Source of the DNA: Erpobdella octoculata
Lineage: Eukaryota > Annelida > Clitellata > Hirudinida > Erpobdellidae
DNA length: 64,000 bases
Assembly (NCBI GenBank): GCA_963978895.1
Contig: OZ022239.1
Coordinates: 13,196,274 to 13,260,273 of the forward strand
Reading direction: 5' to 3'
The stretch's first letter is position 1; each line of letters begins with the position of its first letter. The notes beneath the pieces are model-generated. The model saw nothing but the letters and a program-made list of their open reading frames with translations. It made no database searches and was not told where the DNA came from. Position numbers and translations under genes: made by a program. Shown here piece after piece: positions 5,917 through 17,599 of the stretch.

Positions 5917-8900
5917 TTAACCAAGAAGCCAACCACGACCCTAAATAAAATTGTTTTTTTTTTAAAGTTAATAGATAAATTCATTTAAAATTACAAAATA
6001 TTGTTATGCTCCTGTAACTTATTGTAGTGTTAAATGACATTAATTGCATTATTTAAATATTTTAAAATATCAAGTGAAGCTGAATTAAATTTGTTTCATA
6101 AAAAAAAATTATATAATAAATACCCCTCCAACTCCAACTCCAGCGCCAATGCCTGCTCCTCCACCACCAATATCAGCTCCAATACCAGCTCCATTACCTC
6201 CTACATTTGCTCCAGCGTTGAAAAGGAAACCGCCACCCTTTTTAATAAGTAATAAATAATTTTTATTAATAATCTTTTTTATAATTATTATATTAACATT
6301 AAATTATTATAATTATTATATTATAAAATACTCAAATAACAAACAATTAAAAAATTATTCTTACACCAATGCCGACATTCCCACCAACTCCTCCATCTTT
6401 GCCTCCTAATCCGACATTCAATAAAAAGCCATCGCCCTACAACAGTTAAAATAAATATTAGAAACTGAGAATAAAAAAAATGTTAAATAGAAAATACGTA
6501 TGTTTAATTTATGCAATTTTAATTCTTTCATCATTAATCACTTCTTTTTTGTCGCCTTTTCCGATTCCGACTCCAGCGTTCAATAAAAATCCACCGCCAT
6601 TCTAGATGAAAACCACGTTTTAATACAATTCAATTTTAGTTTATTCAGTTAAAATATGATTCTTTCAGAATTTTATAAACATTCAAATGGTACACTGAAA
6701 AACTTTAAAAAATTATAATTATCTTACTTCTTTATTGTCTCCACCACTTGCTCCAATTCCTCCACCAATTAGGAACCCGCTTTCCTTAAAGTATTTTTGG
6801 CAAACAATTTTTTTTTATAAAAATCTGTTTTTAAATGAGCTTTTTTTAAAATACAAAACTAGTATTATGAAAAATAATAATTTTTTTAAAAAGATAGCAG
6901 TGTATTTATAATAATACACAAGTTATTCTATACAAACACAAAACTAATTAACAAACTTGTTTAACAACTACATAAATTTTATAAATGAACTGTTGCAAAT
7001 CAATCAATTAAATTAATTTTTATAACGCTATTTCCGTGGCGTTCAATAGCGCTAAGACATGAAATTATTAAATACATAGATGAGCGAGGTGTAGTTAGTA
7101 AGAGCAGCAGGAAGAGAGTTCCAGAGAAAGGCAACAGAGTAGGAAAAAGAGCGTTTAGCAAAAGAATGCTTAATAGTAAAAATACAAAAGTGATTAAGAG
7201 AAGAAGATCGAAGAACAGACTTAGGAAGAATTTGTATTAAGTTATTTAGGTAGAGTGGAGTAGAACAATTTTTTATCTTAAACATTTGTAAAAAAGTTTT
7301 AAGGATCATCCAGAAGTGGATGAAGCTGTTTAATGCGGCGAATATGGAAGTATAAAGATTTAGTAACAGATGATATACAATAAATTCTCAATACAAGCAA
7401 CATTTAATATAATTAATAAAAAACAATTTTCTTTCATAAATCAATCTAGATGCTTTTGAAAATTTCGATAAAAACAAACTAACTCCTTTTTTATCACCTA
7501 CGCCGGCTCCAATTCCACCATTCAAGAGGAAACCGCCACCCTGAAATTAAAAAAAAACATCTTTTTTTAATAATATTTATTTGCAAAACAAACTTCCAAT
7601 AAGTAATAATTATTATTATTATGTTAAACAAGTGAAGCAAAAACAAAGTTTTTTTAAAACGCACTTTTATATTTTTACTACATAAACAACGAGCATATTA
7701 GCATAGAAAATAAATAGTTCGACGAAAATATCACAAATGGTTATTTAATTAAATTGTGTCCAATCGATCCGAAAATTTATATAAATATATATATATATAT
7801 ATATATATATATATATATATATATATATATATATATATATATATATATATATATATATATATATATATATATATATATATATATATATATATATATATAT
7901 ATATATCTTATAAACACGAGGTATTTCCTATCAAGTTATCAAGATAGGATATATATATATATATATATATATATATATATATATATATATATATATATAT
8001 ATATATATATATATATATATATATATATATATATATATATATATATATATATATATATATATATCAAGTATTTCCTATCAAGTAACATCGTATTCATTAC
8101 CAATAATGTGATACAATGTTAGTTTAAAATCGATTGCAAAATTTGACGACAGACAGACAGATAGAACACACAGAGAAGTCAAGTTAATTAAAAGTGTGTA
8201 AAAACACATAAATAATTGAAAATAAGTATGATTTTGGAATAAGGATATTAAATTCATCAATTTAATTATGTAATATTTATTCTTGTTTAATGTTGATAAA
8301 AACCTAAATTTTGATATATTTTGCCCGATATGGTTTTTAATAATTTTAAAAGTAATCTAGAAAAGCATGTAACTCTGTTATAGCTAGCAGTACCTACGTT
8401 TGTTTAAAAAAACTAAAAAATGCACAAAGTATTTGATTTTCTTAAATGTTTGATTTATATTAATTTATTATATTTATTAAACAATACGTTTTTACAAACT
8501 TTTTTACAAACTTTTATTTAGGTTACAATCTCTGCTTGTGTATGTGTGAGTGTGTGTCTTTCTCGGTACGCAAATCTTGTAAGTAAAATTTAACTAGCTT
8601 TTTGACTAGCTAGAAAGCTGAAACTTTCAGCATAGCTTTATATTGGAAGACAATACATAATTCAAAAAAAAAAACAATTGAATTTGAACATCTTTTGTAT
8701 TTCTAAATCGAATGTATTTGAAATCAAAGTTTGTGTTGAAAAACAAGTTTTTCCTTTACTAGTTTAAGTCATAATGTTGCAGCCATGTTAGCGTTTTATG
8801 ATTTTTAATTTAAAATTGAACAAAAATTAGTTTACTTTGCCGCCAACACCAAGACCACCTCCGAGAAGAAAGCCTCCACCCTGAAATATTTAATTTATAA

Positions 8901-15849: not shown

Positions 15850-17599
15850 TTATTTATAGCTAGTCTGTCTCACTTCAAGCTCGACTTTAGGTTTTTCAGC
15901 TTGTGGAACTTCGATTTTTCCTCCCAGCCCCAAAGTGACTATGTTTTTAAGGTTCAAATCAGCTACTGCTTTGGCAGTGTAATAAAACCAGACGTTATTT
16001 TGCACACGAGGTTTCTGTTGCAGTTCTGGGACTTTTGATGAGTAGAAAATGCGCACTTTGTCAGAAATTGTCGCAGGTAGCCTAGAAATAAGAAAAATAA
16101 ATTTATTTCTAACAATTTAAACATATATTTGAAGTTTTTCTTATAAAACTCACCATAAAATAAAGATTATTTTATTTTGAACTTTGCCATCTATCTTAAC
16201 AGGAGTAGAATATATTGCGTATCTTGCATCCTTTTCGTTTCCAAGATCATCAATGAAATCAGAAAAATCAGCGCCTTTGATAAATAATAATTTATAGATT
16301 AAAACAATAAAAAATGCTCGAATGTGAATTAAATTTAAATGTTATGACCTTTTGCTCCCTGTTTGACTGGTCCTAAAACTGAAAGGTCACTTGAAAAACC
16401 AAATATAGCATAACTACTTAATCCGTTAACGACATCGTCAAAAACTGGTGTACTTTTTGAGTCGATATTAAGAGTTTCTTGATTCTGTTTGTTTAAATAC
16501 TGAATTTTAAAATTATTTAAACTTTAGTAATAAATGCTTTCCATACAAAATTATTTACACCATAAACAATAAATTATTTTTTAAGTTCCGTACTTACGGT
16601 TATTACTTCTTCGACTTGGTCATAATATTCAGTTGATTCAATTGTCGTGTAACCCGCTTTACGACTTTCAACAATTGAATCAAGATTCAAATCTTCTTGT
16701 GACCCAGTAATAATTTCTACCCAAACATTGGCGCCTAATGCGGCTTCAACATCGCCATATTCTGCCGAATATACTTTACGGACATTTGCATCAGCGCTCA
16801 GAGGAACCCTAAAATTAACAGATTCGTACATTAAATAAACAATGAACAAATTATATATTATTCATAAATATATAAATTTATTACCAGACAATAAAAATAA
16901 TTTTATTTTGAGTTGAACCACTGATATCAACAGGTGCGAGATAAAAAGCAAATCTTGCTTCGCCAGCATTTTTTGCACTTGCCAATTCTTTTGCCAAGTC
17001 GGCAAACGTCGAGCCTAAAACATAGTTAGTCAGTAATTAAACTTTTGCATTACTCAAAACTAATTTGAACTAGCAGTTCCATGTACATTAATGTCTAATT
17101 AATTTAAAATGTAATGAATAATTAAATATTTGAATTTGGTAGTTTTATGGAGAAACGTTTCATCCCTGGTTTATCATTTACAAAGAAACTTTTCGTAATT
17201 TTCATTTGAAAAAAAATAAAAAAATAAGTTTATATTAGAAATAAAACAAATAGATTAGAATGCTCACTGGCTGCAGCGGATTTTACCAAATTAACTCCGC
17301 TGAAGTCGGCAGAAAGTTTGAAGAGAGCATATCTTTTAGATCCACTTGAAACGTCCTTGAATGCACTTGCAACCGACGAATCAATTTTAAGTGATGAAAC
17401 CTGAGTAACAAAACAATTTCATAAACGCAATTTAAAATAAAAAAAATAGATTTACTAAAAGAAATTTCTCACCAGAGTGATTGAGATAGCAAACAGCAAA
17501 CAGATGATTAAGGATCTCTGAAAACAAAACAAATTTGAACATTGCAAGATAAAACTCATTAAGTTTAAACGTGTACAACGTTTATTTTTTACTAACCAT
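15850..17599 (-). CDS. Gene A: secreted tandem ADF-H (cofilin-like) protein
   Basis: Eight coding exons: 17597-17599 (ATG only), 17473-17517, 17268-17400, 16885-17014, 16598-16808, 16349-16484, 16154-16274 and 15850-16081 (stop). Together they give 1011 nt, 336 aa, unbroken. Residues 1-16 (MRSLIICLLFAISITL) are a signal peptide split by a phase-0 intron. ADF-H domain 1 is about 17-155 (KRYALFKL, ARFAFYLAP, NKIIFIVWVP, NVRKVYSAE). An acidic linker follows (YYDQVEEVIT). Domain 2 is about 181-320 (YAIFGF, ARYAIYSTP, NKIIFILWLP, KVRIFYSS). The K-x-x-[IF]-[IF]-[FI]-x-W-x-P strand and the following basic YSS helix are hallmarks of ADF/cofilin. The family normally acts on cytoplasmic actin; here the signal peptide points outside the cell. 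No transmembrane segment is seen. A TATA-like TTTTTAAAAC lies about 95 nt upstream of the ATG. The role is unknown. Confidence 0.88.

Follow-up and report, generated by a model that had tools for sequence, protein, structure and literature searches.

Candidate secreted ADF-H proteins in the leech Erpobdella octoculata, including a four-domain member with a glycine-rich tail

ADF-H proteins are described in reviews as one- or two-domain regulators of the actin cytoskeleton (PMC10638096, PMC5297645; these and all other papers are cited here from excerpts). A stretch of 64,000 nucleotides (nt) from the leech Erpobdella octoculata (contig OZ022239.1, positions 13,196,274 to 13,260,273; hereafter the window) raises the question of whether this fold has also been put to use outside the cell. 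Read directly, its minus strand from 17599 to 5917 contains open segments with ADF-H motifs, short glycine-rich segments, and plausible splice borders, from which the original prediction had proposed a secreted clade of two-domain ADF-H proteins encoded by two genes, A and B. Our best explanation, to which we give roughly an even chance, is that a small family of secreted ADF-H proteins arose here from an ordinary ADF/cofilin gene, and that the chain, once exported, serves as a modular extracellular material.

A splice model of the region was built by hand from borders visible on the raw sequence. The model runs from 17599 to 5917 on the minus strand and joins 26 exons into a single open frame of 848 residues; all 25 introns have GT-AG borders and compatible phases, and 21 of them are 67-259 nt long. 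We refer to the whole model as gene A, which spans both of the genes first proposed. Its product would consist of a hydrophobic leader, four ADF-H domains (d1-d4), and a glycine-rich tail, in that order. The coding part of exon 1 is an ATG only (17597-17599), followed by a GT donor, and exon 2 (17473-17517; 45 nt, phase 0-0) encodes the leader, in which the initial M is followed by RSLIICLLFAISITL; the introns on either side of it span 17596-17518 and 17472-17401. Every domain is formed by three exons (phases 0-1, 1-2, and 2-0): d1 (16598-17400) by 17400-17268, 17014-16885, and 16808-16598; d2 (15874-16499) by 16499-16349, 16274-16154, and 16081-15874; d3 (13631-14403) by 14403-14280, 14129-14000, and 13929-13758, with a 60-nt linker exon at 13690-13631; and d4 (9750-13458) by 13458-13335, 13259-13130, and 9933-9750. 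As this three-exon module is symmetric, with phase 0 at both ends, it can be duplicated without loss of frame. The tail (5917-9490) follows in 11 phase 0-0 exons (9490-9446, 9315-9265, 9167-9120, 9028-8981, 8880-8836, 7540-7484, 6784-6728, 6601-6542, 6436-6365, 6237-6124, and 5940-5917), with the stop at 5917. The spliced ADF-H exons, leader, and glycine-rich tail exons are thus present where the original prediction had placed them, on the minus strand, while its count of two domains gives way to four in one frame, plus single-domain paralogues elsewhere in the window.

For the Pfam search, the gene A protein was cut into parts. All four domains matched PF00241 above its curated cut-off of 22.4 bits, with 62.2, 54.7, 57.0, and 46.7 bits for d1 to d4 (E-values of 5.2e-17, 1.1e-14, 2.1e-15, and 3.1e-12), which bears out the predicted ADF-H identity. 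The single domain of a second gene, gene C, described below, also scored above the cut-off (3.7e-13). By profile, the four gene A domains and that of gene C therefore belong to the ADF-H superfamily, and a chance match is ruled out, since five domains pass the cut-off. The best match by sequence to a solved structure was actophorin (7sog, 2.8e-11), followed by cofilins. The gene A domains are 31-42% identical to one another (39% between d1 and d2, 42% between d3 and d4) and 24-29% identical to actophorin; when the gene C domain and Arabidopsis ADF1 are included, identities to the two reference proteins range from 15 to 29%.

Would such domains still bind actin? When the domains are aligned with actophorin and Arabidopsis ADF1, which have K-x-K or R-x-K as the basic pair of their long helix, the corresponding residues read K-x-R in d2-d4, N-x-R in d1, and S-x-R in gene C; of the YASSK motif shared by the two reference proteins, only d2 keeps a part. 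We take the first residue of the pair to correspond to K112 of human cofilin in this alignment, with K114 presumably also falling in the pair. K112 sits on the actin-binding helix (PMC8534876). Because the first residue is K in d2-d4 and N or S in the other two, d2-d4 may be able to bind actin, while binding by d1 and gene C is more doubtful. This bears on a tentative alternative to an extracellular material, namely that gene A encodes a secreted actin binder, with domains that bind or sever actin released from damaged, host, or prey cells and a glycine-rich tail that anchors the protein in a surface layer. The K-x-R pair in d2, d3, and d4 argues for such a role, and tandem domains could raise affinity. 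Yet the first basic residue is replaced in d1 and gene C, YASSK is partly kept only in d2, and a scavenger has no obvious need for a long glycine-rich tail.

Gene A is not the only member of the family. A search of 1949 six-frame segments of the window with a profile of the four domains returned two further ADF-H sets, both upstream of gene A and on the same strand. Gene C (40142-45009) has five exons, at 45009-45001 (MKM), 44924-44886 (leader), 44557-44422, 44129-44000, and 40328-40142, and encodes an intact protein of 166 residues with a leader and one ADF-H domain, to which d1 is the closest gene A domain (48% identity). Gene D (31039-34689) is a paralogue of gene C with the same exon layout, in which a 10-nt tandem duplication in exon 3 leads to a frameshift and a stop. 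Exon 1 of genes C and D codes for ATGAAAATG, and that of gene A for ATG only. In C and D alike, tandem AG-CAG acceptors (44925-44927) precede the leader exon, both in frame; use of the upstream one (44927 in C) would add one Gln.

Both intact genes thus begin with a leader. Averaged over 10 residues, its Kyte-Doolittle (KD) hydropathy peaks at 3.19 in gene A and at 3.0 in gene C, counting the Met of exon 1. Past residue 30, no 19-residue segment exceeds 1.29 (A) or 0.94 (C), so that hydropathy, the only measure used here, gives no second membrane-type segment. By this measure, the proteins have the N-terminal hydrophobic segment of secreted proteins and no further membrane segment, in agreement with the cleavable-looking leader and missing membrane anchor originally described. 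Signal-peptide cleavage sites follow the -3,-1 rule, and the residues at these positions, V and S in gene A and S and A in gene C, fit its usual form. The leader would route the protein through the endoplasmic reticulum and be cut near the border of VSS and LKID (A) or of SSA and VIKV (C), and cleavage would leave a mature N-terminus near where cofilin begins. Downstream of the leader, gene A encodes no Cys and no N-glycosylation sequon; a sequon-free outcome was seen in 1.8% of 5000 shuffles of its ADF-H part. The leaders of C and D are of the same kind as that of A and differ from it in sequence, which points to secretion as a trait of the family. On these grounds, secretion of these ADF-H proteins is likely, if not proven, and the idea of a secreted clade is strengthened in this respect, while the two-domain, two-gene layout first attached to it is replaced.

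The leader exon has phase 0-0 in both A and C, which allows a second alternative that we also hold only tentatively: the leader exon may be a cassette, whose inclusion yields a secreted protein and whose skipping, with the ATG joined directly to the first ADF-H exon, yields a cytosolic, cofilin-like one. Judging from the exon borders, the leader-skipped product of gene A would start M-VSSLKID. Exon 1 and the leader exon are identical between C and D at 48 of 48 positions, compared with 281 of 305 in the stretches compared of the two adjoining introns (chance of this at the intron rate, 0.02), which counts in favour of the secreted family. Against the cassette, full conservation of the leader exon would be expected of a constitutive exon too.

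How could a leader have come to stand in front of such a domain? In angiosperm ADF genes, the first exon is very short and often consists of the start codon only; that of mammalian ADF/cofilin genes is short too (PMC5897475). Exon 1 is an ATG in groups I and II of both the soybean ADF genes, with later exons of 260 or 266 nt and then 151 nt (PMC10413265), and the alfalfa ADF genes, with exons of 261 or 267 nt and of 150 nt (PMC11821967). The genes described here share this trait, as the first coding exon is the ATG in A and three codons (ATGAAAATG) in C and D. They also share an intron at a conserved Trp codon. The soybean lengths (3 + 266 + 151 = 420 nt, or a 139-residue ADF and a stop) place the second intron in codon 90, in phase 2, and in Arabidopsis ADF1 the conserved Trp is residue 90. 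All five intact domains (d1-d4 and C) have a phase-2 intron within the Trp codon at the aligned position. The unc-60 isoforms have a common first exon as well (PMC3469465); its coding content is not stated there, and we do not use it as support. Between their first coding exon and the start of the ADF-H exons, the genes carry an additional phase-0 exon of 39-45 nt that encodes a signal-peptide-like segment. Judging from its position, the simplest reading is that this leader exon was inserted into the old post-ATG intron of a standard ADF/cofilin gene. No donor exon for the leader was found.

The tail of gene A sets it apart from gene C. It comprises 206 residues, 47.6% of them Gly, and matches no Pfam family at E<=1; with its 11 phase-0 exons, it is as modular as originally described. 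Among three of these exons, pairwise synonymous differences amount to 7.3/13.0, 8.3/13.2, and 6.0/14.2 sites, and nonsynonymous differences to 4.7/35.0, 6.7/34.8, and 2.0/33.8 sites, the pairs not being independent. Such differences look as expected of coding repeats under constraint. An intergenic repeat is ruled out by the phase-0 exons, the GT-AG borders, and the synonymous bias. The composition of the tail makes a role in matrix, mucus, or glue our best guess; the structural, adhesive, or effector-like function originally suggested is likewise an inference. The 3' end of gene A is uncertain, as read-through past 6124 without splicing would reach a stop a few codons on.

Whether the four domains and the tail belong to one chain depends on the phase-0 intron that joins the two halves (14404-15873). 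Splice sites were scored with matrices built from the sites of the gene A model itself, each site being left out when its own score was calculated. Donor 15873 ranked in the top 1.5% of 547 GTs in the region, and acceptor 14404 in the top 4.6% of 539 AGs. Most of the intron is taken up by an inserted element, with a LINE-like (long interspersed nuclear element) reverse-transcriptase fragment on the plus strand (PF00078, 5e-08 on 14509-14991) and an (AAT)n run that extends to about 15803; a search for further copies of the element within the window returned only a local inverted repeat. Beyond the element, the two ends of the intron amount to about 70 nt and at most about 50 nt, and no leader or promoter was seen by eye in these roughly 120 nt. 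Given the two high-scoring phase-0 sites and the short non-element intron, the two genes first proposed, A and B, most likely form a single gene with an internal intron swollen by the reverse-transcriptase element. We consider it unlikely that they are separate, the first encoding a secreted protein that stops near 15850 after two domains and the second encoding d3, d4, and the tail. An in-frame stop near 15850 and an AATAAA at 15854, both within the intron, would fit two genes, but donor and acceptor both score high and the exons lie only about 120 nt apart once the element is excluded, with no leader or promoter apparent between them. The last intron of d4 contains a fragment of a PIF1-like helicase (PF05970, 2.3e-19 on 10961-11272, plus strand), probably derived from a Helitron. 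Another intron within d4 (13260-13334; 75 nt) is stop-free and a multiple of three in length, and its retention would add 25 in-frame residues.

Comparison of genes C and D gave a nonsynonymous divergence (dN) of 0.059 and a synonymous divergence (dS) of 0.148, or a dN/dS of 0.40, over 167 codons with the insert columns left out. Their exons are identical at 462 of 501 positions and the compared intron stretches at 845 of 954; the flanks, kept out of the pooled intron figure, are identical at 241 of 274 positions (5') and 103 of 133 (3'). That the locus is a decaying pseudogene cluster without a product seems very improbable: the frameshift in D and the transposable elements in several introns would fit decay, but the open frames of 848 codons in A and 166 in C and the dN/dS of 0.40 do not. 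One such element, a retroelement at 41238-42758 (plus strand) in the last intron of gene C, has matches to RNase H (PF17917) and an integrase zinc-binding domain (PF17921, 1.5e-11), and an integrase core match below threshold. At 35514-35585 (plus strand), part of the C/D leader exon and the beginning of its intron recur in inverted orientation, with 87.7% identity over 73 nt. This copy adjoins a segment (35438-35513) that matches a repeat at 12940-13015 and may be a piece of a gene picked up by a mobile element.

Returning to a family of secreted ADF-H proteins, we propose that ADF-H modules would have multiplied by duplication, with one in gene C and four in gene A. The exported chain may form mucus, cuticle, a capsule, or an adhesive, in which the ADF-H domains would be folded units that bind or cross-bridge, and the tail would be flexible and associate with itself. 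Several observations count against this proposal, besides the stop and AATAAA described above, from which a shorter, two-domain product is possible. Of the AG-open-GT segments of 36-60 nt in the window, 1246 in all, a KD value of at least 3.0 is reached by 9 and one of at least 2.9 by 14, so that such values are uncommon but not unique. The gene A leader exon is one of the 9, the other 8 being segments without any known link to these genes. Taken alone, the leader exons of C and D reach 2.99; they make up 4 of the 5 rows between 2.9 and 3.0. With 8 unrelated segments at or above 3.0 and the C and D leader exons just below it, hydropathy by itself is not decisive. Gene C carries two sequons, so that their absence from gene A is no family rule and is weak evidence, and a symmetric leader exon can be skipped without loss of frame. 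Several splice sites scored low in the leave-one-out matrices: acceptors 14130 (-0.5) and 6602, 6437, 9316, and 6238 (1.6-1.9), and donors 9749 (0.5), 8835 (0.7), 16348 (2.3), 13999 (2.5), and 6364 (2.9). The alfalfa exon lengths place the plant intron one base later than those of soybean, in phase 0 directly after the Trp codon; the codon thus agrees with both plants, the phase with soybean only. Finally, it is the composition of the tail, and nothing besides, that speaks for a material role.

A bolder version, which we put forward as a conjecture, is that of a new family in which a signal-peptide exon in the post-ATG intron turns an actin regulator into a secreted building block, splicing toggles between the cytosolic and secreted forms, and one member has quadrupled its domain and gained a silk-like tail. 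A leader-bearing clade with one and four domains would itself be an uncommon instance of a cytoskeletal fold put to use beyond the cell, and by an unusually readable route, namely exon insertion at an old intron followed by module duplication at matching phases. Actin binding by exported ADF-H domains and the material formed by the tail would then become open to test.

Elsewhere in the window, long reverse-transcriptase reading frames (PF00078) were found at 20673-23039 (plus strand) and 61417-62757 (minus strand). A reading frame with a SAP domain (PF02037) and one repetitive end (29016-29588, minus strand) lies beside a DDE_1 transposase fragment (PF03184; 29881-30285, plus strand), and very long tetranucleotide arrays (57584-58280 and about 58700-59600) are visible as repetitive reading frames. 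Rfam gave no matches to the window at gathering scores, and ARAGORN no tRNAs.

Are similar proteins known from elsewhere? A protein database query with the leader and four domains (642 residues) found nothing at E<=1 among 8000 candidates scored, and a five-row alignment, used as a profile, nothing at 1e-3 among 2758 candidates, ordinary cofilins not being recovered either. Arabidopsis ADF1 served as positive control and matched 2541 proteins of 2552 candidates in the same database; the 120 matches listed carried mostly plant names (NCBI, UniRef, nr), with some unnamed. Since this control finds eukaryote proteins, the result speaks against close relatives in that database. Distant relatives could have been missed, as candidates had to share 5-residue words, the profile search did not return ordinary cofilins, and proteins of about 291-352 residues fell outside both length ranges. 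Pattern searches gave 86 matches in viral contigs and 149 in GTDB genomes, of which none were confirmed. A literature search of titles and abstract openings found no secreted ADF-H family, and excerpts of two reviews (PMC10638096, PMC5297645) make no mention of a four-domain or secreted ADF-H class, which is not proof of its absence from print.

Among known systems, the ADF/cofilins (actophorin, yeast cofilin, and plant ADFs) share the PF00241 profile, the ATG-only first exon, and the intron at the conserved Trp codon. The proteins described here differ from them in the leader, the four domains of gene A, the glycine-rich tail, and the 15-29% identity to actophorin and ADF1; with a leader in A and C and four domains in A, they are not ADF/cofilins proper, which have a single domain and no leader. 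Twinfilin likewise carries tandem ADF-H domains in one chain, but it has two of them and a capping-protein-binding tail (PMC10638096, PMC5297645), whereas gene A has four, a leader, and a glycine-rich tail. Identity with twinfilin was rejected, as four domains and a glycine-rich tail stand in place of two domains, a linker, and a capping-protein-binding tail. The glycine-rich structural proteins of mucus, cement, cuticle, and shell have similar Gly/Leu/Phe-rich repeats; to our knowledge, they are not known to carry ADF-H domains, and the gene A tail differs from them in matching no Pfam family. Plasma gelsolin, a secreted vertebrate protein that binds and severs released actin, resembles the gene A product, itself predicted to be secreted, in that a single exported chain combines several domains of a related fold. 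The gelsolin repeats, in contrast, form another family, and gelsolin is without a glycine-rich tail.

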